DNA of 64,000 nt from a virus. The notes beneath the pieces are model-generated. The model saw only the letters and a program-made list of their open reading frames with translations. It was not told where the DNA came from and made no database searches. Position 1 is the first letter of the stretch. Each line of letters opens with the position of its first letter. A program made the translations under genes and the position numbers. This document shows, piece after piece, positions 10,082 through 56,978 of this stretch. The stretch lies in IMG/VR virus record IMGVR_UViG_3300010970_000144, positions 1 to 64,000 of that record. One strand, 5' to 3'.

Positions 10082-10696
10082 ATGAATGTATTGGAATTAT
10101 TTGCTGGTAGTAAATCTATCGGTAATGTTGCTGAACAATTAGGCATGAATGTTTATTCAAGTGATATTGAACAGTTTGGTGGCATTAACTATGTTGTTGA
10201 TATTTTAGAATTTGATGTAAATAATGTTCCCTTTAAGCCTGATATTATTTGGGCCAGTCCTCCATGCACAGGTTTTAGTGTTGCTGCAATAGGTAGAAAT
10301 TGGACAAAGACAGATGGGGATGCAATACCAAAATCTGACACCGCAAGACTTGGTATAGAACTAGTAAAAAAAACAATAGAAATAATTGATTATTTTAATC
10401 CTAATTATTATTTTATTGAAAATCCAAGAGGTATGCTAAGGAAGTTGCAAATTATGCAACGTTTTAAGCGTCACAGCGTAACATATTGTCAATATGGAGA
10501 TAGCAGAATGAAGCCAACCGATATTTGGACAAATAGCGAAACTTGGATTCCAAGATCTGCTTGTAAAAACGGAGATACTTGTCATGTTAGTGCGCCAAGA
10601 GGTTCAAGAACAGGAACACAAGGACTTGCAAATGCTTTTGAAAGAAGCAAAATACCGAATCAATTATGTGAAGAAATTTTAAAAAGTTGTATATGA
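10082..10696 (+). CDS. C5 cytosine methyltransferase-like protein, compact
   Basis: 204 residues. MNVLELFAGSKSIGNVAEQL is the SAM-binding motif I, WASPPCTGFS carries the catalytic Cys (about residue 62), and FIENPRG corresponds to motif IV (ENP rather than the usual ENV). There is little room for a target-recognition domain, so this is a minimal form of the family, about half the usual size. It would methylate cytosine in phage DNA for protection or signalling; activity without a recognition domain is uncertain. The Cys-rich end (SACKNGDTCHVSAPRGS) is unusual. Confidence 0.75.
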   Translation: MNVLELFAGSKSIGNVAEQLGMNVYSSDIEQFGGINYVVDILEFDVNNVPFKPDIIWASPPCTGFSVAAIGRNWTKTDGDAIPKSDTARLGIELVKKTIEIIDYFNPNYYFIENPRGMLRKLQIMQRFKRHSVTYCQYGDSRMKPTDIWTNSETWIPRSACKNGDTCHVSAPRGSRTGTQGLANAFERSKIPNQLCEEILKSCI

Positions 10697-11147: not shown

Positions 11148-11477
11148 TTAAGCTGCTGTTGTTGTAGTGGTTGTAGGAGCCGCTGTAGTGGTCGTAGTAG
11201 TAGTGGTAGTTTGGATTCCACCGCCATTGATAGCTGCAATTAAACCAGCAACAGTTGCGTCACTGTATAATTTTTCAGCAGGTTGATTAAGACCACTAGG
11301 GTAAATGAGAATTAATGAGTTCATTTGAACACCATTCGCCACAACCGTAGAAGGTTGAACCTGTAAGTTGGCTGTTGGTAAAGAAAATAATACACCATTT
11401 GTTGCAGGTGTTCCATTTGCGTTTGTTAAATCGTATTGATTTCTACGATAAACATAAACTGATACATGATTTGCCAT
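11148..11477 (-). CDS. paralogous small beta-rich protein with poly-Thr tail
   Basis: 109 residues from MANHVSVYVYRRNQYDLTNA. The open frame extends 12 codons upstream, but that extension overlaps a TATATTTG box (11511-11518), so the ATG at 11477 is preferred. The C-terminus is a threonine run interrupted by AAP (TTTTAAPTTTT), the same low-complexity module as in the 1304-aa tail protein and in the 126-aa protein at 45268. Threonine runs suggest O-glycosylation or a flexible spacer (inference). Confidence 0.65.
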   Translation of the reverse strand: MANHVSVYVYRRNQYDLTNANGTPATNGVLFSLPTANLQVQPSTVVANGVQMNSLILIYPSGLNQPAEKLYSDATVAGLIAAINGGGIQTTTTTTTTTAAPTTTTTTAA

Positions 11478-11510
11478 TTTTTTTATTTTATTGTTTATAA
11501 ATTGTTTCAA

Positions 11511-11583
11511 CAAATATACTTAAAATTTAGTAATTTTTATTTTAAAAAAAAGTATTAAATTAATTAAATTAGTTCTACATTTG
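11511..11583. promoter_or_regulatory. divergent promoters for the small beta proteins and the head operon
   Basis: Leftward TATATTTG at 11518-11511. Rightward TACATTTG at 11576-11583, preceded by a 19-nt spacer containing AAATTAATTAAATTA. A further TTAAATTAATTAAAT copy lies between the box and ATG 11601. No good TTTG -33 box is seen for either. Confidence 0.6.
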
Positions 11584-26900: not shown

Positions 26901-27835
26901 CGTTTGGTGATGTATTGAGATTGCATGTTAGAGATAGATACTTAAAGGTTTACCAGAATTTTAAAGTAGGTAATGTTCCTATTTTGACTCAGATTGTAAA
27001 AGACGTAACTGGAAACCCATTACAAGCTAATAGCAATCAATTAATTAATAAGATTCAGTATTATGCTGGTGATTATGGGATTGGAGATGCTGCTACAAGC
27101 CTTGCTTGGAACAACTATGCAGATTACTTCGTAGATAATTTTAGAGGGGTAGTTTGTAGATTGGCTCAAGATGGAATTACTCCAATTAGTATTACCAATA
27201 ATACAAATGCTTTCTTTGTAGCCACATTGGCTGCATATAGACAAGATTTGAATAATGGTGTACCTGCAACAGGTGTGGTGTATTCTGGAAATCCTTGTAT
27301 ATATGGTGTATTTGATGCTAATACCAACAAATACATTATTGCAATGGAGGAAATTAATAGGTATTTACCTCCTTCTACAACTACTACAACGTCTGGTCCT
27401 ACAACAACAACAACGACTAGTACTACTACAACAACAACGGCTGCTCCTACGACTACAACTACTTCAACAACAAGTACGACTACTACGACTACAACTACGG
27501 CGGCACCTACGACAACAACTACTAGTACAACAACTTCAACTACCAGTACCACTACTACGACTACGGCAGCTAGTACAAACTTTATTATAAGTGCTGGGTA
27601 TTCGGCTCCAAACGAATGTTCTGGTCAAGGTGGTCCGTACCCTAATTCAGTTTATGGGAATAGTTCAGTTTGGTATGATCCGGGAGGACCGTATGTGACT
27701 AGATTCTTTACTGATAGTGGTATGACAATACCATTTGATGGTGTTAATTTATATTATAGTGACCAAGATTCAACATTTGGAACTACATTACAAATAGATA
27801 CTGATGGATATGTAATTGGATATTTTTCATGTTAA
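23921..27835 (+). CDS. large tail hub/stabilisation protein with poly-Thr linker
   Basis: 1304 residues. The N-terminal region (NTPFSGKLNLDDAEYRVSNN, then DVLNVTK-like and GDLLFFNDGYNPPRVLNVNN) has repeated beta-strand blades like the P22 gp10-type tail hub/needle-base proteins of short-tailed phages. A Thr-rich linker occupies about residues 1151-1218 (blocks such as TTTTTTAAPTTTTTS, encoded by ACN repeats at 27375-27573). A compact C-terminal domain follows (ISAGYSAPNECSGQGGPYPN ... SDQDSTFGTTLQIDTDGYVI). The C-terminal domain hung on a flexible linker could bind a receptor; this is inference. Confidence 0.65.
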   Translation: MIINTPFSGKLNLDDAEYRVSNNDYVDALNVTKDAQGRGQDKVVSNILGNTLISYSLPSGVSKVIGFYGDKVRNRAYYFIWNSDGFHTIAYYDLNTQTITTVLQSKTNSNGVDILNFNPSYKVLSVNIFYRDLEGDLLFFNDGYNPPRVLNVNNLYGTDWVADYLLVAKAPPVMPPQVTYENDTTITINNLRNKLFQFCYRYVYDNNEKSVWSSKSIVPLPQQPSLTLTNDISDTYNSRIAVNFSTGGPDVKAIEIAFRETLNSGTSDWYLIKSFDKSTLSINDNDIHYFRFYNDSIYNQIDVIEADQLQDWVPQRANAAELANGNVLLYAGILEGYDKTDVELEATTYSTASSYYYDQCGLSFFASVNGNDSGFGTTMDIYLYGTGTNGIDGNVTELNNAAGTYYINSFSASGTDLSTSYATTGLTTNYLVSDILAGISAAMVLEGYTQVSLVGNKLTMSYAGGFVLTSTAFATIPALDNDNTRFANVWNGGYQYGIQYFDAQGRTIGTQTSPSAVINTPSRVLTDDFPLVNLSILNRPPLYASYYQIVRSNNTTYNKRLCWVSESAYTSLPDGVDNTKFLYIGIGNIQEYNDQISSTQNVVSYNYTEGDRIKFIRRYDVAGTAQNITSQFDYEIVGTLSTIEYTTTANNNTNTAVGNFLKLRYPTSDIDATFQFPGTEDWQHYEILLYNYTNNASSTQRFFYEFGKQYGIGDAGLPTRYHYGLTKLPNGGATLAINNGDLFYRLRKVPYSNKYEYTSGVFSIGVSGAFTSRSVSFPITVSPTIDNSLYRIQTEANVDVDLSGGGYPVWSDTGYFFYNKSTTLQQPVSIKGTFNMASDGTSQFSVYALICTNLVPLSPKITISLLPIEVNDIKQNVDTTFTIDKQITVPQTGKVYIVAKSTNDAVGSNNVIVQPMTFEFQVLKGSEIEIIESSFNDTYNLITNSNGRPSVIDENAAKTYFPTLIRFGQAYQSNTNLNATNRFIYEDFDEYDRSFGDVLRLHVRDRYLKVYQNFKVGNVPILTQIVKDVTGNPLQANSNQLINKIQYYAGDYGIGDAATSLAWNNYADYFVDNFRGVVCRLAQDGITPISITNNTNAFFVATLAAYRQDLNNGVPATGVVYSGNPCIYGVFDANTNKYIIAMEEINRYLPPSTTTTTSGPTTTTTTSTTTTTTAAPTTTTTSTTSTTTTTTTTAAPTTTTTSTTTSTTSTTTTTTAASTNFIISAGYSAPNECSGQGGPYPNSVYGNSSVWYDPGGPYVTRFFTDSGMTIPFDGVNLYYSDQDSTFGTTLQIDTDGYVIGYFSC
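27375..27573 (+). repeat. ACN codon repeat encoding a poly-Thr linker
   Basis: About 200 bp of near-continuous ACA/ACT/ACG/ACC codons, with three interruptions for Ala-Ala-Pro or Ala-Ala-Ser. The same (Thr)n-AAP-(Thr)n coding block ends the genes at 11148-11477 (opposite strand) and 45268-45648. Confidence 0.85.
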
Positions 27836-39031: not shown

Positions 39032-39550
39032 ATGCCTCTTGTACCTAATTTTACGGCCAGTCAATTTAGTGGCACTCCGTCAGTTATTACATTAACCGAT
39101 ACAAGTACGGGAAGTGATGGTTCTATTACTTCTCGCAGAGTATATTTATTACAAGCTAATGGTACGTTTCTAGTACCGGCTGGAACAACTACAGATTATG
39201 TGGTTTGGGATTTAGTTGATACAAGCATTGATTTAGATGTGTTATCTCAAGATTCTGCATTAAGTATTACTGTACAATGGATGAGCAGTACAAATACTGT
39301 AGTCACTTCAAAGACTATATCATTCGCATTTACAGCATATAATGAAACTTTTTATTACGGCTTAACTGAAAGTCAAGTTGCAAATTCTAATTTGTCTGCA
39401 AGCACCAACTGGTACCAAACGAAACTAGTATTACGAGTTGAAATTGATAGTGCGGATCAGGCAATTACATTTGCTTCTGATATTTATTCAGCACAAGCTG
39501 CATTAAACAGAGCAACATACATATCTACTAACCAAGCTTTATTCTTCTAA
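39032..39550 (+). CDS. tail/fibre-associated protein (172 aa)
   Basis: Beta-rich with Thr/Ser loops (GTPSVITLTDTSTGSDGSIT, SITVQWMSSTNTVVTSKTIS). An immunoglobulin-like fold is plausible. No known family name. Heads the fibre block. Confidence 0.55.
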   Translation: MPLVPNFTASQFSGTPSVITLTDTSTGSDGSITSRRVYLLQANGTFLVPAGTTTDYVVWDLVDTSIDLDVLSQDSALSITVQWMSSTNTVVTSKTISFAFTAYNETFYYGLTESQVANSNLSASTNWYQTKLVLRVEIDSADQAITFASDIYSAQAALNRATYISTNQALFF

Positions 39551-40608: not shown

Positions 40609-43600
40609 GTGGCTGTACAAAATTTAATAACGGGAGAGTTCCAAATTCGTCAAGAAAATGGAGTTTTGGTAGCTGTGAACGGATTGGTTTCCGCAGATAC
40701 TTCTGGTACTATTGGTACTTCGGGATCTAGCGGTTCATCTGGAACATCAGGATCTAGTGGTTCATCTGGTATTTCTGGTTCTTCGGGTAGCACCGGTACA
40801 AGCGGATCTTCAGGTAGTTCTGGGACTTCGGGATTAAATGGCTCTTCAGGCACAAGTGGTAGTTCAGCGACTAGTGGCAGCTCAGGCACATCTGGTACCA
40901 CAGGTAGCAATGGGACATCGGGTACGTCTGGTACTACGGGGACCTCTGGTAGTTCAGGTACATCGGGTAGTTCTGGTACGTCAGGCACCACTGGTACGTC
41001 AGGTACGTCAGCCACAAGTGGTACTTCAGGTACTTCGGGCAGCTCAGGTATAGATGGCACATCGGGTACTTCAGGAAGCTCAGCAACTTCTGGTTCTTCT
41101 GGGACTTCTGGTTCATCGGGAAGTTCAGGTAGTTCTGGGGCGAATGGTAGTAATGGCACTTCGGGTACTTCAGGAATTGATGGTACTTCTGGAAGCTCAG
41201 GCAGCTCTGGATTAGATGGAAGCAACGGCACTTCAGGTACATCGGGAATAAATGGCACATCGGGGATAGACGGCACTTCAGGTTCATCAGGTTCTTCGGG
41301 AAGCTCTGGTTCTTCAGGTACGTCTGCTATAGATGGTACGTCTGGTTCTTCGGGTACATCTGGAACTTCAGCAACAAGCGGCACTTCAGGTACTTCTGCG
41401 ACAAGCGGCACTTCTGGTACGTCAGCTACATCAGGTACTTCTGGAACTTCAGGATATTCTGGAGATAAATATTACACAACGTCAACATCAACCTTTACTC
41501 TTGGTAATGCAGGAACTATAACAGTTGGTACAGGGTTAGCCTATTCGGTAGCTCAATCAATTATTGTGGTTTATGATGCAAACAACTTCCAAGAGTGTGA
41601 GGTTATTTCATATAACTCAGGAACCGGAGCATTGCAGTTTGCTGCTCCAGTAAGAACAGTTGGTTCCGGAACATATTCATCATGGACAATAAACTTAGAT
41701 GGTGCTAGTGGAGGCGATGGATCAAGCGGTACGTCAGGAACTTCAGGTGTTAGCGGTACGTCAGGAACTACAGGCACATCAGGTTCCTCAGGTACAACTG
41801 GAACATCGGGCAGTTCAGGTTCTTCGGGTTCAAGTGGGACTTCGGGAACGTCAGGACGTAATGGTATAGATGGTTCTTCAGGAGCTTCTATTGCCAACTG
41901 GTATGGTTCTTTTTCTAGTTCTTTAACACAAACTGTTACAGCTGCTAATACCCCTACTGTAATTACTTATAATACAGTAGAGATTTCAAATGGTACAACT
42001 ATCAGTGGTTCGCAAATTGGTTATCAGCATGCTGGTATCTATGAAATTGGTTATTCTTTACAAGTAGAGAAAACTCAAGGTGGTGGTGCTGCTGACGTTG
42101 AAATTTGGTTAAAGAAAAATGGTTCTGATATTTTAAGAACAGATTCAATTTTAGGTTTATCTTCTAATAGTATAAAGCAGCTTCCATTCGTTTCAATAAT
42201 GTTGGAACTTGCTGCTAATGATTATTTAGAAATATATTTTGCATCTGACAGTGACCATGTTCAAGTAACAGCGGTTCCGGCTCAGACATCTCCTTATGTG
42301 GTTCCAGCAGCTCCATCTGTTATTGTAGTTACAAAGCAAGTTGGTATAGCTGTAGGTACAACATCTGGAACAAGCGGAAGCTCAGGAAGTTCAGGCACGT
42401 CTGGGACTGCGGGTACCTCTGGAAGTAGTGGTGTAAACGGCACATCTGGTACCTCTGGTAGTTCAGGAGTGAGCGGTTCATCTGGTTCTTCTGGAAGTTC
42501 GGGTACGACTGGTACATCAGGTACGACTGGTACGTCCGGCACATCAGGATTTAACGGAACATCTGGTTCATCTGGTACTACTGGAACTTCAGGTTCATCG
42601 GGTACAAATGGAACGGGGGGTACGTCAGGAACTAGTGGTAGTACGGGTACGTCTGGCACATCTGGTACTACGGGTACGTCAGGTTCAAGCGGTACGAGTG
42701 GCAGTTCGGGTACGTCTGGTACGACAGGTACGAGTGGGACATCTGCTGTAAATGGTACTTCAGGATCATCAGGCACGTCTGGGACATCTGCTACTTCTGG
42801 TACAAGTGGATTTACCCCTACCAACCAAGTAACCGGTACAGGTACTACTAACTACCTACCTAAGTTTACAGGTACAAGTACAATAGGTAATAGTATTATT
42901 CAAGACGCTTCTACTTATATTGATGTAGCAGGTTATGCCTTTTTAAGAAGAGGTGGAAAATATTTATTATTAAATCCTAATTATGCTGGAACAACTGTTT
43001 ATGCAGATATTTCTGCCGAAGCAGGAATGGGTTTATCGTTATCAGCTAATGGGGTAACTAAACAATTATATATTGACACTTCAGGCAATTTAGGTTTAGG
43101 AGTAACACCAAGTGCGTGGGGTTCAACAGTTAGAGTATTACAATTTGAGAATGGCGGAAGCATAGCATCAAACCAATCTACGCAAGTATCGTTTAACAAT
43201 AACGTTTATTCTGTTCCGGGTACAAATGACTACTATATTTCAAGTGCATTTGCAAGTAGATATATTCAATTTCAAGGTCAACATATTTGGTCAACCGCTC
43301 CTTCAGGAACGGCAGGTAACGCTATCAGCTTTACACAAGCTATGACGTTAAACGCTTCAGGTAACTTATCCATTGGTAATACTAATGATACTTATAAACT
43401 TGATGTGAGTGGAACGGGTATATTTAGAGGAGCATTAACTATAAGTGGACCTTCTCCTTTAAAATTCAAATATTCAGATAACTATGACTATTATGGAATA
43501 GGATATATTTCAGGTGCTGATTATGGTTTTTATAACTATAACTATGGCAGAACAGATTTATTATTTACGCAATCAACAGGTGCAGCTACATTTAGTTCAT

Positions 43601-45255
43601 CGGTTACGGCAGGGGGTAAAATATTTACTTCTGCAAGTGTAAATGATAATATTATTGAAGTAATTAATAGCGATACTACAAACGGATATGGTCTTTATGT
43701 AAGGGGTGGCGGTACTGCTTCAAATAGATATGTAGCAAGATTTAAGAACGGTGCTGACTCTGATGTAATGTGGGTTGGAACTTCTAACGTAGGTATAGGA
43801 ACTACAAGTCCGGGCGGTAAATTACATATTGCAGGAGATGGAGATGCCTCTAACTTAATAAGGCTACAACATACAGGAACAGGCGGTAATGGTTATTTTG
43901 ATATTAACGTTAATAGTACGGCAGCAAGTTTAGTAGCTAATTATAGTTCAACTGCAATACCAATGTTATTTTTAACAGGCGCTACCGAACGTATGAGAAT
44001 AACAAGCTCAGGAAACGTAGGTATAGGAACTACAAGTCCTTTCAATAAATTAACTGTTGCAAGTGTCCCTGATAGTGGATATGGTCTTATAACTATTGCA
44101 ACAAATTGGGGCAGTAATATTAGTACAGGAATAAAAATAGGTGCAGCAGGAGATAATGGGAGTTCTGGTGTTGATATAAGAGCGCATACAAATTATTCTG
44201 CAACAGGAGATACGCAAATGTCTTTTTGGACTAATGGGGCATCTTTAGCCGAACGTATGAGAATAACAAGCGGTGGTAGAGTTGGTATAGGAGTAACTGC
44301 ACCATTGTCACAATTACAAACATCAGGAGATATAGAAGTAGGATATGTAAACTCTCTTAATAATGCAATGGTATTCAATTGGGGTGGTGCTTCTGCTCAC
44401 GGTTCAATACAAACTTATTCATCAAGTAATTTAGCATTACAGCCTTACGGTAATAAAGTAGGTATAGGTACTTTAACTCCTACAAGCCTTCTTGATGTTC
44501 AAGGTCCGAGTGGTAGTAATGGTTCTGTCTTATTGACCTTACAAAAAGCTGGTGGATTTGGAGGAACACAATTTTACCAATACTACAGTTCTTCAAGTGA
44601 TTATGGAATAAACTTTGGTTTAAATGTATCAAATGCTACTGATGGGAGAGCAGGTATTATTATACGTTCAGATACTGGCGGTAATGGTACTCTTGTATTT
44701 AATACTTCTTCTGCGGAACGTATGAGAATAACAAGCGGTGGGAATGTGGGTATAGGAACTACAGGAGCATCAAATGTTCGTTTATATGTATTAGGTAGCG
44801 ATACAACAAGTTCAAATTGGAGTTTATATTCTACTGACACAAATGGAAATATTCTTCTTGCTTCAAGAAATGACGGACTGATAGCAACAGGTACAAGAAC
44901 ATTATCTCCTTATAATTTAACAACAGGAACTGCTGCTAATTTAGTTGTAGATAATTTTGGATATTTATATCGTTCTACATCTTCATTAAAATACAAGACC
45001 AATGTTCGTGATTATGATAAAGGATTAGATATTATCAATCAAATGCGACCTGTATATTACAATGGTAAAAATGATGGTAACACGCAATTTGCAGGCTTAA
45101 TAGCGGAAGAAGTACACGATTTAGGTTTAACTGAATTTGTACAATATGCAAACGATGGGACCCCTGATGCATTATCTTATCCCAATATGGTTGCTTTATT
45201 AGTCAAAGGGATAAAGGAACTTAAAGCAGAATTAGACACATTAAAAAACAAATAA
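40609..45255 (+). CDS. collagen-like tail fibre with self-processing Peptidase S74 end
   Basis: 1548 residues from a GTG start (MAVQNLITGEFQIRQENGVL) one base after the HNH stop. Three blocks of Gly-X-Y triplets made of Gly, Ser, Thr (e.g. GTSGSSGTSG), about residues 32-286, 365-427 and 584-735, should trimerise as a collagen-like helix. Between them are globular beta-domains. Residues about 1000-1420 carry repeats of ERMRIT-S-GNVGIGTTSP, frequent in phage fibres. The last ~90 residues (SSLKYKTNVRDYDKGLDIIN, FAGLIAEEVHDLGL) are an intramolecular chaperone of the endosialidase (S74) family, which folds the trimer and cuts itself off at the conserved Ser. Host recognition is the likely role. 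Confidence 0.9.
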   Translation: MAVQNLITGEFQIRQENGVLVAVNGLVSADTSGTIGTSGSSGSSGTSGSSGSSGISGSSGSTGTSGSSGSSGTSGLNGSSGTSGSSATSGSSGTSGTTGSNGTSGTSGTTGTSGSSGTSGSSGTSGTTGTSGTSATSGTSGTSGSSGIDGTSGTSGSSATSGSSGTSGSSGSSGSSGANGSNGTSGTSGIDGTSGSSGSSGLDGSNGTSGTSGINGTSGIDGTSGSSGSSGSSGSSGTSAIDGTSGSSGTSGTSATSGTSGTSATSGTSGTSATSGTSGTSGYSGDKYYTTSTSTFTLGNAGTITVGTGLAYSVAQSIIVVYDANNFQECEVISYNSGTGALQFAAPVRTVGSGTYSSWTINLDGASGGDGSSGTSGTSGVSGTSGTTGTSGSSGTTGTSGSSGSSGSSGTSGTSGRNGIDGSSGASIANWYGSFSSSLTQTVTAANTPTVITYNTVEISNGTTISGSQIGYQHAGIYEIGYSLQVEKTQGGGAADVEIWLKKNGSDILRTDSILGLSSNSIKQLPFVSIMLELAANDYLEIYFASDSDHVQVTAVPAQTSPYVVPAAPSVIVVTKQVGIAVGTTSGTSGSSGSSGTSGTAGTSGSSGVNGTSGTSGSSGVSGSSGSSGSSGTTGTSGTTGTSGTSGFNGTSGSSGTTGTSGSSGTNGTGGTSGTSGSTGTSGTSGTTGTSGSSGTSGSSGTSGTTGTSGTSAVNGTSGSSGTSGTSATSGTSGFTPTNQVTGTGTTNYLPKFTGTSTIGNSIIQDASTYIDVAGYAFLRRGGKYLLLNPNYAGTTVYADISAEAGMGLSLSANGVTKQLYIDTSGNLGLGVTPSAWGSTVRVLQFENGGSIASNQSTQVSFNNNVYSVPGTNDYYISSAFASRYIQFQGQHIWSTAPSGTAGNAISFTQAMTLNASGNLSIGNTNDTYKLDVSGTGIFRGALTISGPSPLKFKYSDNYDYYGIGYISGADYGFYNYNYGRTDLLFTQSTGAATFSSSVTAGGKIFTSASVNDNIIEVINSDTTNGYGLYVRGGGTASNRYVARFKNGADSDVMWVGTSNVGIGTTSPGGKLHIAGDGDASNLIRLQHTGTGGNGYFDINVNSTAASLVANYSSTAIPMLFLTGATERMRITSSGNVGIGTTSPFNKLTVASVPDSGYGLITIATNWGSNISTGIKIGAAGDNGSSGVDIRAHTNYSATGDTQMSFWTNGASLAERMRITSGGRVGIGVTAPLSQLQTSGDIEVGYVNSLNNAMVFNWGGASAHGSIQTYSSSNLALQPYGNKVGIGTLTPTSLLDVQGPSGSNGSVLLTLQKAGGFGGTQFYQYYSSSSDYGINFGLNVSNATDGRAGIIIRSDTGGNGTLVFNTSSAERMRITSGGNVGIGTTGASNVRLYVLGSDTTSSNWSLYSTDTNGNILLASRNDGLIATGTRTLSPYNLTTGTAANLVVDNFGYLYRSTSSLKYKTNVRDYDKGLDIINQMRPVYYNGKNDGNTQFAGLIAEEVHDLGLTEFVQYANDGTPDALSYPNMVALLVKGIKELKAELDTLKNK
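40702..42815 (+). repeat. Gly-Ser/Thr-Ser/Thr triplet coding repeats (three blocks)
   Basis: Nine-base-periodic runs of GGN-(TCN/AGY/ACN)-(TCN/AGY) at about 40702-41465, 41700-41890 and 42358-42815. Synonymous codons vary freely while Gly stays every third residue, so the repeat is held by protein selection. Long antisense frames rich in Pro-Glu-Val are shadows of it. Confidence 0.9.
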
Positions 45256-45267
45256 AATAAAACAAAA

Positions 45268-45648
45268 ATGGCAACAACAGTATTTGAATGGGTAATTTCG
45301 CAGCTTAATTGTGCAGTTGAATCAGAAGGTCTACCTGACGTTATCAATGTAATACATTGGAGATATAACGCAACCCAAGAGCATGATGGTAAAATTTATT
45401 TTGCAGACACTTATGGTTCATCAAGTGTAGCTCAACCGAATCCACAAAACTTTATTCCTTACGCAGATGTAACAGAAGCTGAAGTTATTGGCTGGTTGGA
45501 AGAAATATTGCCTGTAGAAGCTATGCAATTAGCTCTAGAGAACAATATCGCTCTTCAAATCAATCCGGTTGAGGTTACACTTCCATTACCATGGATTTCA
45601 ACTACAACTACCACAACTACGGCAGCTCCTACAACAACTGCTCCATAA
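45268..45648 (+). CDS. fibre-adjacent phage protein with poly-Thr tail (126 aa)
   Basis: ATTVFEWVISQLNCAVESEG, INVIHWRYNATQEHDGKIYF, DVTEAEVIGWLEEILPVEAM. I know this family from many tailed phages, including cyanophages, next to tail fibres; its function is not known to me. The C-terminus adds the local (Thr)n-AAP-(Thr)n module, absent from the family elsewhere as far as I recall. Confidence 0.65.
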   Translation: MATTVFEWVISQLNCAVESEGLPDVINVIHWRYNATQEHDGKIYFADTYGSSSVAQPNPQNFIPYADVTEAEVIGWLEEILPVEAMQLALENNIALQINPVEVTLPLPWISTTTTTTTAAPTTTAP

Positions 45649-46073: not shown

Positions 46074-46099
46074 AAGCAGGCTGCGAACCTGCTTTTTTA
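46074..46099. terminator. bidirectional terminator
   Basis: AAGCAGG, loop CTGCGAA, CCTGCTT followed by TTTTTT. Lies between the rightward 113-aa gene and the leftward glycosylation island, and can serve both. Confidence 0.8.
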
Positions 46100-46774
46100 T
46101 TTAATATTATCAGCTATTTGTTTAAAATAATCAGGCAATTTATCGTAAGTGTATAAGTAACTATAATTATGTGGCCTTTTTTTTATGTTTCTTCTACATA
46201 TTTTTAATTTTTTAGCCGCTTGCCTAAATGAATCATATTTAATTAGTTCATTTTCAGATATTTGGTAAATTTCTTTTCTTTTAGGAGAGCTTTTTATTAA
46301 TTTTATTTTTACATTTTCTGGAGTAATAGCACCCTTCCTTTTATCAGATATTTTTTTTCTAACTTCCGGATTCTTCATTTTTTCGGTTATTATTTTAACC
46401 ATTTTTTCTCTTACTTCTTTTGAGTGTGTTTTACCAAACATGTAATTTTTCTCTCCTTTATGTTTGTTTCTTGTTTCTTCCGTAACTAATACACCTAATG
46501 CACCCTCTCCGCCATCAGTAAGATTGCATAATGGCCCTTCGTTTTTATTTGATCTTCCATAAAATGAAATTAAATATTTTTCAATGGATAGCGCTTCTTC
46601 GTAACATATATCTTTGTGCGTTATTTCTACCCTATACTCTGTATTTTTTACGATATTTCTCCAATATGAGTTTCTTCGTAGGTTGACCTCGTATGCCCTT
46701 TTTTCATTTCTGCCAACTCCTATGTAGAAAACATCATTAGTATCTAGTCTTATGTGTCTATAAACTATTGCCAT
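46097..46774 (-). CDS. GIY-YIG homing endonuclease with NUMOD3 repeats
   Basis: 225 residues. MAIVYRHIRLDTNDVFYIGV with IGVGRNEKRAYEVNLR is a GIY-YIG core (here V-Y-R and Y-I-G), with the Arg and the Glu (EALSIEKYLISFYG) of the active site. NUMOD3-type DNA-binding repeats follow (NYMFGKTHSKEVREKMVKII) and a basic end. It is the last gene of the glycosylation island, with its ATG sharing the TAA/ATG junction with the 679-aa gene. A selfish element rather than part of the pathway. Confidence 0.8.
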   Translation of the reverse strand: MAIVYRHIRLDTNDVFYIGVGRNEKRAYEVNLRRNSYWRNIVKNTEYRVEITHKDICYEEALSIEKYLISFYGRSNKNEGPLCNLTDGGEGALGVLVTEETRNKHKGEKNYMFGKTHSKEVREKMVKIITEKMKNPEVRKKISDKRKGAITPENVKIKLIKSSPKRKEIYQISENELIKYDSFRQAAKKLKICRRNIKKRPHNYSYLYTYDKLPDYFKQIADNIK

Positions 46775-48813
46775 TACAATAATTTTTGTATTTCTTTAAT
46801 AACCATTTCAGCATTTATTGATGTGTGACATTCAAAGTTTTTAGATCTGGGACACCAATCCCAATTTCCAGCATCTAGCCTATATTCTGACCAACAATCA
46901 TGGCATACTGATTTATTGACTATTCTGCTGCATTTTTGAGTAAATTCGTAATGCTCATTAGTAAAGTTGCTAATCATAACTACATGGGTTCCTAATCCAA
47001 AAGCCAACCAGCTTAGCCCTGAGCTTAAAGATACTTGAAATTTAGCATTTGCAATTATATTCATTGTATTTTCAATAGACGTATCTTCCAGTGGCTCGCA
47101 GTTGTCAAATGGGTTTTTCTCTTTTGAAACATTTATTACCTTGTACCCGTTTTCCGTAAGCCAATTTATAAGGATTTGCCAGTCGTGTCTTTGCCAGAAC
47201 TTGCATTGAGCTGTGGAATTGGTCGCTATTGTCACATAGCTGCCCAAATTTGAGCTTTTTTTGTCGTACTTGAGTCTTGGTGCCACTTCTGTAAATTCAA
47301 GCCCCAAAATGTTGGTTGCTGCCTTTTGTAGTGGTATGGTATTCGGCTCTACTGGCTCTCTGTTTGAATCATAAAAATAACCAATCTTGTACATAGCGTA
47401 ACAGCTAACAGAAGTCCCCGGCTCCACTAATTCCAATTCCGGATAGTCCAGTATCTTATTCCAAAAAGTGGACACTATAACCTTACATTGATGCTTTTTT
47501 CTAAATTCCTCACAATAACCAATCCAAGCCATTGTGTCCCCTAAACTTTTGCTTTCAAAGGCTATAAACACGCTTTTGCCATGCAGGTCTAATATGTTCT
47601 CGTATATTAGCTGCCCGTCTTGATATATGTACGTTTTCCATTTGGTATAGTATTGTCTATTAAGCCTTACCCAGCTATTGCTCTTGATTGTGTTTTGGTA
47701 ATGGCACACATCATTTTCATCATAGAATCTAACATCAAAGTCGCTATCGCTTTCTCCTTTGATTTCAAGGAAAGGGTGGTTAATGAAGTTTTGTGTAATG
47801 CGGACATTCTGTACTTGTGCAGGGAGTTCTAGTATCTTTTCGTAGGCCTCCTGATGCTTCATTGCAAAGTGAATAGATTTGTTGTCCTTTGGTATTTTAT
47901 ACCAGCACATTAGCGTATGCAAATTTGTGTGTTCTATAGGTTCAATATAATCATCATACATTCCGGCATACTGCGGAAGATTCCGCGCAACAATGGGCAG
48001 TCCATGTCCGATTGCCTCACGAAGCACTAATGGATTACATTCCCATGTAGAATTAAACATGAATATATCTGATGCTGTCATGAAGTTGTGAATATCAGTT
48101 CTTTCGCCCCATACCTTTACATTTGATGGTAGGTCCTGCATCAATGGTTCCCAATAGCTTTTGAAATTTCCGGCTTGATTGCCAACGAAGTGAAACATCA
48201 TGTCAGGGTACTTACGGGCTATTTCAAGTCCTTCCCTTTGATTCTTGCCCGGAGTCCATAAGCCTACATTCAGTACATGCTTTTTGTTTCTATCAAATTT
48301 AAGTTCATCTTGACATATCGTTTGGAACTTTTTAAGGTTCTGTTCTTCTATTGGATAAAGTATTGTAACATACTTTGATTCCAAGTCTGCAAATGTTTCT
48401 TCATGGTATGGAGTACAAAAAGAAAATAAGTCTGGGTGAAATACTTTGCTATTCGGATCAAACGAGATGTCATGACATGTTTCTACTATTCTGTACTTTC
48501 TATCTGGGTTGTAAAGCTTCTTTATCATCTCCCTATCCAATCTTTCAGACATTTCATCTATATGGATTATATCGGGCTGGAAGTATTCTATCACATCAAA
48601 TAGCTCCATCTTATTCTCATAAAGGGTAGTAAAATTACTACCAATTAGTACCCTTATAGTGTTCCTTTGGACCACATAATCTAATCCATGGCACTGATAC
48701 TCTACTACATAATATTGATTATCAGTGTGGTTTCTCATGCTCTCTAATCTCTTTAATACGAATTGAGGGCAGCCACCTGTACTAAGATGCGGAGTTAAAA
48801 ATAATATTCTCAT
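46774..48813 (-). CDS. GT4 plus TibC/BAHT-type heptosyltransferase fusion
   Basis: 679 residues. Residues 1-340 form a GT4-type glycosyltransferase (MRILFLTPHLSTGGCPQFVL, KHVLNVGLWTPGKNQREGLE, and the E-x7-E region WECNPLVLREAIGHGLPIV). Residues about 345-410 are a beta-domain (FDVRFYDENDVCHYQNTIKS). Residues 411-679 match autotransporter strand-loop-strand O-heptosyltransferases such as TibC: VFIAFESKSLGDTMAWIGYC, CKVIVSTFWN, SSGLSWLAFGLGTHVVMISN, and the four metal-binding cysteines Cys637, Cys640, Cys654, Cys662 (C-x2-C-x13-C-x7-C). TibC adds heptose to Ser/Thr of beta-repeat proteins. A phage copy fused to GT4 would transfer and extend sugars, on phage fibre or host surface. Confidence 0.85.
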   Translation of the reverse strand: MRILFLTPHLSTGGCPQFVLKRLESMRNHTDNQYYVVEYQCHGLDYVVQRNTIRVLIGSNFTTLYENKMELFDVIEYFQPDIIHIDEMSERLDREMIKKLYNPDRKYRIVETCHDISFDPNSKVFHPDLFSFCTPYHEETFADLESKYVTILYPIEEQNLKKFQTICQDELKFDRNKKHVLNVGLWTPGKNQREGLEIARKYPDMMFHFVGNQAGNFKSYWEPLMQDLPSNVKVWGERTDIHNFMTASDIFMFNSTWECNPLVLREAIGHGLPIVARNLPQYAGMYDDYIEPIEHTNLHTLMCWYKIPKDNKSIHFAMKHQEAYEKILELPAQVQNVRITQNFINHPFLEIKGESDSDFDVRFYDENDVCHYQNTIKSNSWVRLNRQYYTKWKTYIYQDGQLIYENILDLHGKSVFIAFESKSLGDTMAWIGYCEEFRKKHQCKVIVSTFWNKILDYPELELVEPGTSVSCYAMYKIGYFYDSNREPVEPNTIPLQKAATNILGLEFTEVAPRLKYDKKSSNLGSYVTIATNSTAQCKFWQRHDWQILINWLTENGYKVINVSKEKNPFDNCEPLEDTSIENTMNIIANAKFQVSLSSGLSWLAFGLGTHVVMISNFTNEHYEFTQKCSRIVNKSVCHDCWSEYRLDAGNWDWCPRSKNFECHTSINAEMVIKEIQKLL

Positions 48814-48825
48814 AGGTTAATTGAT

Positions 48826-49128
48826 TTAATATCTTTCAAAAAGGAATCTACCAACAAATGGGTGGATTTTAACCATTCCATATTTTTCTATAATTTTTAC
48901 AACATCATCAGATCGTAATGATTGATGTAAATTTTTGACTATCTCTCTGAATGATTCTAAATCATTATCTTTTTTTAAATTTTGACAATCTTCGCAAATA
49001 GGCATCAGGTTTTCAAATTCCATTGATTCAGGTTGCATTTGGTCAACTTTAACTTCTTCTATGGTAATTCTTTGGCCACAATAAGCACAAAGACCATCAT
49101 ATTTTTCGTATATTTTTTCTATGTTCAT
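48826..49128 (-). CDS. HNH-like protein with altered active site
   Basis: 100 residues. YDGLCAYCGQRITIEEVKVD, then ENLMPICEDCQNLKKDNDLE: two CxxC zinc pairs and the N...L..C..CN-like arrangement of small HNH nucleases. The catalytic position normally reads D-H; here it is VDQMQP, so the His is Gln. It lies between two glycosyltransferase genes with gaps of 12 and 3 nt. It could be a decayed homing nuclease or a repurposed DNA-binding protein. Confidence 0.65.
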   Translation of the reverse strand: MNIEKIYEKYDGLCAYCGQRITIEEVKVDQMQPESMEFENLMPICEDCQNLKKDNDLESFREIVKNLHQSLRSDDVVKIIEKYGMVKIHPFVGRFLFERY

Positions 49129-50478: not shown

Positions 50479-50533
50479 AAAATTAATTTAATTAAGCAAA
50501 AGTAATTAATTTAATTAAATAAATATATCTTTG
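50479..50533. promoter_or_regulatory. divergent promoters sharing a TTAATTTAATTAAAT core
   Basis: Leftward TACTTTTG (50504-50497), rightward TATCTTTG (50526-50533). The 19-nt spacers of both promoters overlap in one A/T-rich element (50505-50525), and a second copy of the element lies at 50480-50494 in the leftward leader. One regulator bound there would control both the glycosylation island and the DUF6165-lysis side. Confidence 0.65.
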
Positions 50534-50548
50534 CCTAAAATAATTATT

Positions 50549-50926
50549 ATGAAAATAGAAGTAAGCATTGGCGAGATAGCCGATAAGTACACCATCTTAA
50601 CCATCAAATCATTTGAAATTTTAGACGAGGAAAAGCAAGCCAACATTAAAAAGGAATGGAAGTACATTAACCAAGTAATCAAAGAGAACTTTAAGGAGTT
50701 GGCATCAGACAAGCTAACGCATAGGCTTCTGGATATAAACAGGCAGCTATGGGTGGTAGAAGATTCGCTACGAGATTGCGAAAATGACAGGGATTTTGAT
50801 AAGCTATTTGTCTTTTTGGCAAGACAGGTTTATAGACTAAATGACCAGAGAGCAGCCATCAAGAAAGAAATTAACATTAAGTACAAGTCCGACATCATAG
50901 AGGAGAAGTCATATAACGCATATTAA
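50549..50926 (+). CDS. DUF6165-family protein
   Basis: 125 residues: MKIEVSIGEIADKYTILTIK, NINRQLWVVED-like LLDINRQLWVVEDSLRDCEN, FVFLARQVYRLNDQRAAIKK, EEKSYNAY. The order VSxGEIADKxTIL...LW..ED..R..E...F..LAR.VY..ND.RA.IK matches DUF6165, which in bacteria lies in polysaccharide and glycosyltransferase clusters. It would belong functionally to the neighbouring island. The upstream frame extension overlaps the -7 box, so ATG 50549 is chosen. Confidence 0.75.
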   Translation: MKIEVSIGEIADKYTILTIKSFEILDEEKQANIKKEWKYINQVIKENFKELASDKLTHRLLDINRQLWVVEDSLRDCENDRDFDKLFVFLARQVYRLNDQRAAIKKEINIKYKSDIIEEKSYNAY

Positions 50927-55142: not shown

Positions 55143-55173
55143 TTTTTTAATTTAATTAACTCGGTTAACTTTG
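55143..55173 (+). promoter_or_regulatory. promoter with TTAATTTAATTAA spacer element
   Basis: TTTT, 19-nt spacer TTAATTTAATTAACTCGGT, TAACTTTG. Thirteen bases later comes ATG 55186 of the first glycosyltransferase. Confidence 0.65.
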
Positions 55174-55185
55174 GAAAAAAAATAC

Positions 55186-56109
55186 ATGAAATTAAGGTTC
55201 ATTTGCGCTCAACCAACCTCACTTTATTATGCATGGCAAGTAGAAGTTATGATTAATAACTTTATTGAAATGGGTATCAACCCCAACATGATTGATATTG
55301 TTTGCTGGAAGATTAACAATGTGATACCTGAAGAATGGGCCAAGCTCGCGGCTAATTATCCAGCTCGTTTCTTTTTTTATGATGATACCAGACAAAGCAG
55401 ACACTACATATCCTCAATACGTCCAAACATATTAAAGCAGCATTTTGAAGCAAATGATTTGAATGGTGAAGCTATTCTTTATCACGATTGCGACATTGCG
55501 TTTACAAAGAAAATAGATTGGGAGCAGTTCTTACAAGATGATAAGTGGTACGGATCTGATTGCCGTTGGTACATAGCACATAGCTACATATTAGGCAAAG
55601 GCCAAGACGTAATAGATAAGATGTGTGAGATAGTTGATATACCAGAATCACTGGTGAAAGACAATGAACTAAACTCAATCGGCGCGCAGTACCTGATGAA
55701 AGGTATTGATGCACAGTTTTGGGCGGACGTTGAAAGAGATTGCGAAAGACTATTCCATGAAGTAACTCAACTTAATAACGAAAAGAAACAAGCAGATGCA
55801 ACTCATCATGAATTACAGATATGGTGCGACATGTGGGCGGTGCTATGGAATGGCTGGAAACGTGGAGCAGAAACCATTTGTCACCCAGAACTAGAATTTT
55901 CATGGGGGACAAGTACCGAAGCGGATTGGGATAGATTAAGTATCTTCCACAATGCTGGTGTAACTACCTCAACTGGTGGCTTATTCTACAAAGCAGAATA
56001 CATGAACCAGTTGCCCTATAGTGCAACATTAAATATAAATGAAGGTACGGCCAGTAAAAAATATTGGGATATTATACAAGAAACAGCAAAAAAATCAGTT
56101 CTATTATGA
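55186..56109 (+). CDS. putative GT-A glycosyltransferase (307 aa)
   Basis: Starts MKLRFICAQPTSLYYAWQVE; the in-frame TTG 15 bases earlier lies inside the -7 box and is rejected. AILYHDCDIAFTKKIDWEQF carries a D-x-D-type motif, within the Rossmann-like N-terminal half (MIDIVCWKINNVIPEEW). The rest includes WCDMWAVLWNGWKRGAETIC. Sequence layout fits GT-A enzymes that use metal-bound sugar nucleotides. Together with the next gene it forms a second glycosylation cassette. Confidence 0.6.
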   Translation: MKLRFICAQPTSLYYAWQVEVMINNFIEMGINPNMIDIVCWKINNVIPEEWAKLAANYPARFFFYDDTRQSRHYISSIRPNILKQHFEANDLNGEAILYHDCDIAFTKKIDWEQFLQDDKWYGSDCRWYIAHSYILGKGQDVIDKMCEIVDIPESLVKDNELNSIGAQYLMKGIDAQFWADVERDCERLFHEVTQLNNEKKQADATHHELQIWCDMWAVLWNGWKRGAETICHPELEFSWGTSTEADWDRLSIFHNAGVTTSTGGLFYKAEYMNQLPYSATLNINEGTASKKYWDIIQETAKKSVLL

Positions 56110-56978
56110 AAGTAATTAAGGCCACATACGGAGGAGTAGATTGTACAGATGTGATAAGTAAAAAGGTGGTAGGCAACCAGCTTATAGTTAGATCTAATAA
56201 TGATATAATCGGAGATACTGCCGTTGGTCAGGTGAAATTTTTAGAAGTAGAGCTATTAACTGATAAGGGGACTTTATTAAAGAGTATTGCAGAAGGTGGT
56301 ATATTAGTGTTCCCTGAATCTAAAGTAAAGAAATTGGGCATATTCTATTCCAACAACAATAACAAAAAGATATGGCCTTCAATCTACCGATCGTTAAATA
56401 CTATTAAGCAAGCAAGCGAGGGGGTAGCAGACATTGTAACTTGTATGTGGGAGCCTATGCCGGAAAACCCATTCTATCAAGTTAGAAGCTGGTATCAGTC
56501 GCAGTCGCACCTCAATCAGTTGCTCCAAATTATGCAGTGTCTTTATGCAGCCAAAGAAACCGGCGAATATGATTACGTTTCCTTTTTAGAACATGATGTA
56601 ATGTACCCAAAGGGTTACTTTGACTTTCCTGAATTTGCAAGAGGTAACGTGCTTACCAATATGAATTATGGGGGTGTTTGCATTAATGGGTGGCAAGAGA
56701 GAGGTCAAGATGATGAGCCGTTCCACCAAATGACCATGAGATTTGAAGATGCCATTAGCCACTGCTTAGCCATTTTACCTAATGCTTTGCGTACAAATAG
56801 CGGAATGATTGAAACTCAAACAATGAAACGGATCCAATGGAATAGCGAAAATCAGGCTATCCATATCAACCATGGAATACATTTTACCAGCCATAATTCA
56901 ATATATCGCAAAGATAATTTATCTTTAACTCATAATTACTGGGGCAACCATTCCGATTATACCAATTTATTCGTATGA
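56106..56978 (+). CDS. putative glycosyltransferase with N-terminal beta-domain (290 aa)
   Basis: Start MKVIKATYGGVDCTDVISKK chosen for the ATGA overlap with the previous stop. The first 65 residues form a small beta-domain (YGGVDCTD...GDTAVGQVKFLEVEL). The catalytic part has YVSFLEHDVMYPKGYFDFPE, a typical E-H-D-V-x-Y-P motif of phage glycosyltransferases, and NYGGVCINGWQERGQDDEPF. Sugar and acceptor unknown. Confidence 0.6.
   Translation: MKVIKATYGGVDCTDVISKKVVGNQLIVRSNNDIIGDTAVGQVKFLEVELLTDKGTLLKSIAEGGILVFPESKVKKLGIFYSNNNNKKIWPSIYRSLNTIKQASEGVADIVTCMWEPMPENPFYQVRSWYQSQSHLNQLLQIMQCLYAAKETGEYDYVSFLEHDVMYPKGYFDFPEFARGNVLTNMNYGGVCINGWQERGQDDEPFHQMTMRFEDAISHCLAILPNALRTNSGMIETQTMKRIQWNSENQAIHINHGIHFTSHNSIYRKDNLSLTHNYWGNHSDYTNLFV

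Follow-up and report, generated by a model that had tools for sequence, protein, structure and literature searches.

A TibC-like glycosyltransferase fused to GT4 in a freshwater phage and its pairing with Gly-Thr/Ser-Ser repeat proteins

The enzyme discussed here is best understood by comparison with TibC. Roles have been assigned in TibC to the catalytic base D110, to T226, K230 and W305, and to the iron-binding cysteines Cys339/342/358/370 (PMC4358343). A hydrophobic thumb (Phe265-Val266) builds its active dodecamer and is needed for activity, and the enzyme glycosylates Ser of a repetitive protein (PMC4358343), so a repeat substrate would be natural for a TibC-like family. Two bodies of work on phages also bear on the question. 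Mycobacteriophage virions are reported to have their own capsid and tail proteins glycosylated (Freeman 2023, as cited in PMC12619734). The glycosyltransferases of pelagimyophage host-recognition clusters, mostly GT8, are read as modifiers of the LPS O-chain in PMC7029224.

This work will focus on a window of 64,000 bases, the whole stretch of DNA that we analysed, taken from the 69,590-base virus contig of a freshwater phage found in a metagenome. It encodes a glycosyltransferase whose gene lies near a tail fibre rich in Gly-Thr/Ser-Ser (GSS) repeats. We consider it likely, from comparison of sequences and models, that the phage glycosylates the repeats of its own fibre and that GT4, GT-A and methyltransferase modules then extend or cap the sugar. 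The features are collected in Table 1.

Table 1. Features of the window that bear on the proposed glycosylation of the tail fibre
Feature	Position	Strand	Basis
GT4 + TibC-like (BAHT) fusion glycosyltransferase, 679 aa	46774..48813	-	Pfam, NCBIfam, model
GT4 (GT-B) domain, residues 1-330, E258-x7-E266	47824..48813	-	PF00534 1.8e-10, conservation
TibC-like domain, residues 338-679, beta-barrel and catalytic GT-B domain	46774..47802	-	TIGR04414, Foldseek
D426, equivalent to TibC catalytic base D110	47536..47538	-	alignment with TibC; PMC4358343
T534 and K538, equivalent to TibC T226 and K230 (beta-phosphate contacts)	47200..47214	-	alignment with TibC
W602, equivalent to TibC W305 (heptose O4 contact)	47008..47010	-	alignment with TibC
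Putative four-cysteine 'iron finger', C637, C640, C654, C662	46828..46905	-	equivalent to TibC C339/342/358/370
SAM methyltransferase (~residues 1-160) + GT-A-type glycosyltransferase (~170-448), 448 aa	49132..50478	-	Pfam, model
HNH endonuclease ORF, free-standing, exactly in the linker between both enzyme genes	48826..49128	-	phrog_2118 1.5e-15
DUF6165 protein	50531..50926	+	PF19662 1.2e-9, synteny
Tail fibre, 1548 aa, 503 Ser+Thr	40609..45255	+	phrog_5073 tail fiber 2.6e-47, composition
(Gly-Thr/Ser-Ser)n block 1, fibre residues 33-239	40705..41325	+	composition
(Gly-Thr/Ser-Ser)n block 2, fibre residues 365-427	41701..41889	+	composition
(Gly-Thr/Ser-Ser)n block 3, fibre residues 585-712	42361..42744	+	composition

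The fusion enzyme compared with TibC

The enzyme is encoded by a single open frame that starts at ATG. The gene is phage-borne, since the record is a virus contig and homologues of the enzyme are found on 43 viral contigs. Its GT4 half matches the Pfam family over residues 170-284 (41.1 bits against a gathering score of 26.4), and the E-x7-E pair is intact, each glutamate being invariant or at least 90% conserved in the alignment of viral homologues. The TibC-like half matches TIGR04414 over residues 357-678 (E 8e-63; 212.6 bits, above the curated cut-off of 200), and its closest solved relative is TibC (4rap, E 3.5e-37). When an AlphaFold2 model built with 24 viral homologues (pLDDT 85) was compared with known structures using Foldseek, the 21 top PDB matches were all TibC chains (4rap/4rb4; E 9e-24, TM-score about 0.75 by target length). 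Most of these alignments span about 375-385 columns, which shows that the model contains the beta-barrel as well as the GT-B core. The resemblance of the 679-aa protein to GT4 and to TibC is far beyond chance.

The window enzyme retains the catalytic base. Of the four residues at the sugar site it keeps three, and its metal cysteines are all in place. D426, T534, K538, W602 and Cys637/640/654/662 are each invariant among 25 viral homologues. The sequence-only reading of this frame had called a GT4 domain joined to a TibC-like domain and a four-cysteine site at these positions, and both calls stand.

The same reading went further and named the enzyme a TibC-type autotransporter heptosyltransferase. 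The fold, the catalytic residues and the metal site agree with that name; Arg286, the thumb and the autotransporter partner do not. In TibC, Arg286 contacts the adenine of ADP-heptose. It is replaced by Thr583 in the window enzyme and by Thr, Val or Lys in the remaining 18 viral rows of our first set. Outside the TibC clade it is lacking from the majority of phage-type sequences and from several bacterial ones. Some sequences there keep it, including some phages selected by their GSS repeats, so the shortening of the thumb is the cleaner marker. The interval corresponding to TibC 252-290 is 10 residues shorter and has no F-V tip. The beta-hairpin thumb is therefore gone, and the enzyme should assemble in some way other than the dodecamer ring of TibC. 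Pro300, a stereoselectivity residue of TibC, is Ser597 here, the same as in AAH. A maximum-likelihood tree places the window enzyme within an all-phage group (SH-aLRT 99) that lies outside the TibC clade (SH-aLRT 100), where all 25 rows have the long thumb.

An enzyme of the true TibC type, with the ADP-heptose chemistry and the dodecamer unchanged, would explain why TIGR04414 scores above its cut-off and why the catalytic base and the cysteine finger are present. We think it quite unlikely given what happened to Arg286 across the first set of viral homologues, together with the loss of the thumb. There is also no autotransporter partner beside the gene, whose neighbours are the GSS fibre and other phage genes, and no gene for RfaE domain II was found in the window's record. 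Just 3 of the 39 records searched carry one, so we reject the idea that the phage makes ADP-heptose itself. ADP-heptose is a possible donor but it would have to be supplied by the host. With Arg286 and the thumb missing, neither 'heptose' nor 'autotransporter enzyme' is an established label. Glycosylation of DNA was considered too and rejected, because both the fold and the metal finger belong to a family of protein O-glycosyltransferases, and because the gene sits among fibre genes.

Neighbouring genes, modular fusions and the fibre repeats

The enzyme gene occupies a minus-strand island between the tail fibre and later genes. Upstream of it on the same strand come the HNH ORF and then the methyltransferase/GT-A gene, and in most relatives the DUF6165 gene flanks the far side of the latter. 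The methyltransferase match to PF13489 (2.9e-5) falls below its cut-off; the model of the 448-aa protein (pLDDT 88) matches methyltransferase, GT6 and glycogenin structures. In ten relatives (L012-L018, L021-L023) the methyltransferase, GT-A, GT4 and TibC-like domains are fused in frame as one protein, 1128-1179 aa long where complete. The HNH gene is missing from the linker position in L012 and in L007-L009, and in the latter three the methyltransferase/GT-A and GT4-TibC genes directly adjoin. Given these fused and abutting relatives, the window looks like the same assembly line split in two, with an HNH gene inserted in the linker. We rejected a homing intron dividing the enzyme genes, since the HNH stands alone as an ORF and neither gene has lost its start, its stop or any coding sequence. 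A GIY-YIG/NUMOD gene at 46097-46774 (minus strand) and the HNH gene flank the glycosyltransferase on both sides, and in L011 the HNH lies upstream of the methyltransferase. Because endonuclease positions differ among relatives, both look like mobile homing genes.

Other relatives add other modules. L034 and L035 carry an extra domain of about 260 aa. In the T4-like contigs L040-L044, which may belong to the pelagimyophage group, GT4, TibC-like, GT-A and PIG-L deacetylase domains are found in one protein of 1241 aa. Phages unrelated to the window have FkbM methyltransferase, GT25 or GT32 modules fused to the enzyme. That methyltransferase, GT-A, GT25/GT32 and PIG-L modules are fused to the enzyme again and again fits the stepwise building of a glycan. 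By eye, the 1241-aa gene of L040-L044 lies among neck- and tail-sheath-like genes, and these contigs also carry epimerase-, reductase- and C-methyltransferase-like sugar genes. The two catalytic halves do not share one history of similarity to the window: L002 is 93% similar in GT4 and 63% in the TibC-like half, and L036 is 52% and 65%. This suggests recombination at the domain boundary.

A few other observations from the window should be recorded. Two conserved proteins of about 300 aa (55171-56109 and 56064-56978, both plus strand) match nothing in Pfam, and no other family or PDB profile. A DCD motif in the first makes it glycosyltransferase-like by eye, and we took it to resemble plant hydroxyproline or serine glycosyltransferases. 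As a second peptidyl glycosyltransferase it found no support from Pfam, NCBIfam or PDB profiles, and we dropped the idea. Mucin-like poly-Thr tracts (TTTTTTAAPTTTTT) occur in three phage proteins, at 11148-11513 (minus), 27368-27577 (plus) and 45598-45645 (plus), and would be further candidate sites of O-glycosylation. Such tracts also lie less than 1.5 kb from homologues of 55171-56109 in seven relatives (L012, L013, L015, L018, L029, L037, L207). Judged by eye, the ORF at 10082-10696 (plus) starts (MNVLELFAGSKSIGNVAEQLG) like a DNA cytosine methyltransferase. The portal and terminase show distant similarity to their counterparts in Flavobacterium and Cellulophaga phages, which suggests a Bacteroidota host.

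A BLAST search of the fibre repeats against named phages gave no match, probably due to the low-complexity filter. DNA patterns were therefore used to search for GSS repeats.

Pairing of the enzyme with GSS-repeat proteins

We looked at the pairing of enzyme and repeats in three ways. Within the window's own family, a small structural protein unrelated to the enzyme (39032-39550) served as the anchor for gathering relatives, whose whole records were then searched for the enzyme. A GSS fibre is present in 26 of 26 anchor relatives with a strong enzyme match, and a fibre without GSS repeats in 15 of 15 lacking one (restricted to records in which the fibre region is well covered), but the anchor-gene tree reduces this to about two independent origins, so the counts are suggestive and not independent evidence. 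A lineage-corrected test in this family has 1-2 independent pairs, too few to decide. With so few origins, the weight of the argument falls on the other two tests.

The second test ran in the reverse direction. Viral contigs of at least 40 kb were picked by GSS-coding DNA alone, and the enzyme was found on 18 of 37. A different collagen-like DNA pattern was used to choose 37 controls, each of at least 31 kb, and the enzyme was found on none of these (Fisher p 5e-7), a comparison limited by the different base composition and somewhat shorter length of the controls. The 18 positive contigs range from 50 to 299 kb and have many architectures. The distance from the enzyme gene to a GSS ORF is at most 5 kb in most of them, at most 2 kb in several and sometimes no more than 20 bases, and in one case the two overlap. 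About half of the GSS-selected contigs have no enzyme, partly because they are incomplete pieces or do not encode real fibres. G075, G082, G085, G089, G106 and others are large and have GSS-rich ORFs but no TibC-like match, and GT4 genes above the cut-off occur in 2 of 11 such contigs checked. Other enzymes may do the same job there, or the contigs may be incomplete.

The third test used bacterial genomes and metagenome-assembled genomes (MAGs), with loci fetched by the enzyme alone and divided only by the thumb motif (EDFTG-like) into 24 canonical and 17 non-canonical, short-thumb loci. A GSS-repeat protein lies within 2 kb in 13 of the 17 non-canonical loci and in 0 of the 24 canonical TibC-type loci (p 1e-7), a count made after some of the pairs had already been noticed; two more of the 17 have one within 6 kb. 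The paired loci include Methylobacter, Methylomicrobium, a Methylococcaceae MAG, Polaromonas, Burkholderiales, Acidiferrobacterales and Arenicellales, and two loci (L047, L055) may be phage contigs inside MAGs. Several of the partners begin with N termini like those of signal peptides or lipoproteins. In Microcystis phage Mel-JY01, which is T4-like and unrelated to the window's phage, a GT4-methyltransferase-TibC fusion is encoded about 1.7 kb from a GSS-repeat ORF. No GSS fibre was found in the stretches of L040-L044 that the contigs cover.

These tests bear directly on the other explanations. Fibre regions recombine often. The enzyme and the fibre could simply travel together as a recombining host-range block while the acceptor lies elsewhere, and both the adjoining genes and the small number of origins in the window's family would be expected. 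It is important to realize that hitch-hiking accounts for the pairing in the anchor family but not for that in the bacterial and MAG loci. The recurrence of the pairing there, and in phages of 50-299 kb with differing architectures, makes this explanation very unlikely. We also looked for co-evolution of enzyme and fibre sequences, which lent no support: enzyme similarity does not correlate with how alike the fibres are outside their repeats (rho -0.16).

A different objection is that the enzymes remodel the host surface, the LPS O-chain or the capsule, for instance to exclude other phages. LPS synthesis often involves enzymes of the GT4 and GT9-like families, and the sugar genes seen by eye in L040-L044 could make a modified sugar for this purpose. 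PMC7029224 gives this reading to pelagimyophage glycosyltransferases that adjoin tail fibres. However, it leaves the GSS pairing in phages and bacteria unexplained, and those TibC-like enzymes that have been tested, with their cysteine finger and beta-barrel, have proved to be protein O-glycosyltransferases (PMC4358343). We regard it as unlikely. The enzyme might instead act in trans on repeat or surface proteins encoded by the host, since some bacteria do encode GSS-repeat proteins. We give this very little credence: the phage has a far larger GSS target of its own, usually a few kb away, and the enzyme gene is placed among virion genes.

Modification of the phage's own repetitive Ser/Thr fibre, which the sequence-only reading had raised, is thus the explanation we prefer, and as far as gene content can tell it is well supported by the pairing in phages and bacteria. 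Pairing across such unrelated genomes suggests that a system which coats repeat proteins with sugar is widespread and has so far gone undescribed.

The proposed mechanism and the known systems

We propose that the 679-aa protein would be a cytoplasmic protein O-glycosyltransferase, made by the phage to decorate its own fibre. Its TibC-like half would prime the (Gly-Thr/Ser-Ser)n blocks of the tail fibre encoded nearby at many of their serines and perhaps threonines, with transfer of the first sugar taking place in the cytoplasm before the fibre is assembled. The GT4 half, for which a role in extending the sugar is plausible, and the methyltransferase/GT-A protein would then extend, methylate or cap the glycan. 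Candidate benefits are receptor binding, shielding from proteases or host traps, and stiffening of the fibre. We lean, with less confidence, towards a broader proposal: that short-thumb TibC-like enzymes make up a large branch, as yet undescribed, which is devoted to (Gly-Ser/Thr-Ser)n repeat proteins in both phages and bacteria. The phage members, as parts of modular multi-enzyme proteins (GT4, GT-A, methyltransferase, PIG-L), would build a modified oligosaccharide many times along collagen-like fibres to give a sugar-coated virion fibre.

If this is true, many aquatic phages carry heavily glycosylated fibres, and our view of their host recognition, stability and escape will have to change. 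It would give a function to the common and unexplained Gly-Thr/Ser-Ser repeats of fibres, and the autotransporter heptosyltransferases, a narrow enzyme family of pathogens, would become part of a broad class that acts on a second type of substrate as well. The pairs of enzyme and repeat are directly testable, including those in cultured Methylobacter strains and in Microcystis phage Mel-JY01.

How much of this is already known? The window enzyme is like TibC and AAH (BAHT, TIGR04414) in its whole fold with the beta-barrel, in its equivalents of D110, T226, K230 and W305, in the four-cysteine metal finger, and in having a Ser-rich repetitive target for a neighbour. Unlike them, it has neither R286 nor the F265/V266 thumb, it is fused to GT4, it belongs to a separate clade, and its partner is a GSS-repeat fibre and not an autotransporter. 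The GT4 half shares the GT-B fold, the E-x7-E pair and PF00534 with WaaG, BshA and PglA, but here it is only half of a fused enzyme. As in the pelagimyophages, glycosyltransferases are embedded among the tail-fibre genes of aquatic phages, though no TibC-like enzyme is named in the passages of PMC7029224 consulted. The mycobacteriophage system modifies the C-termini of capsid and tail-tube subunits (cited in PMC12619734), unlike the fibre repeats proposed here. Our search of the open-access literature turned up nothing on TibC-like enzymes in phages, nor on such enzymes being paired with GSS-repeat proteins. The sequence-only reading had known of no phage self-glycosylation of this build. Phage self-glycosylation in a general sense has already been described, in mycobacteriophages; the TibC-like enzyme type and the GSS substrate appear to be new.
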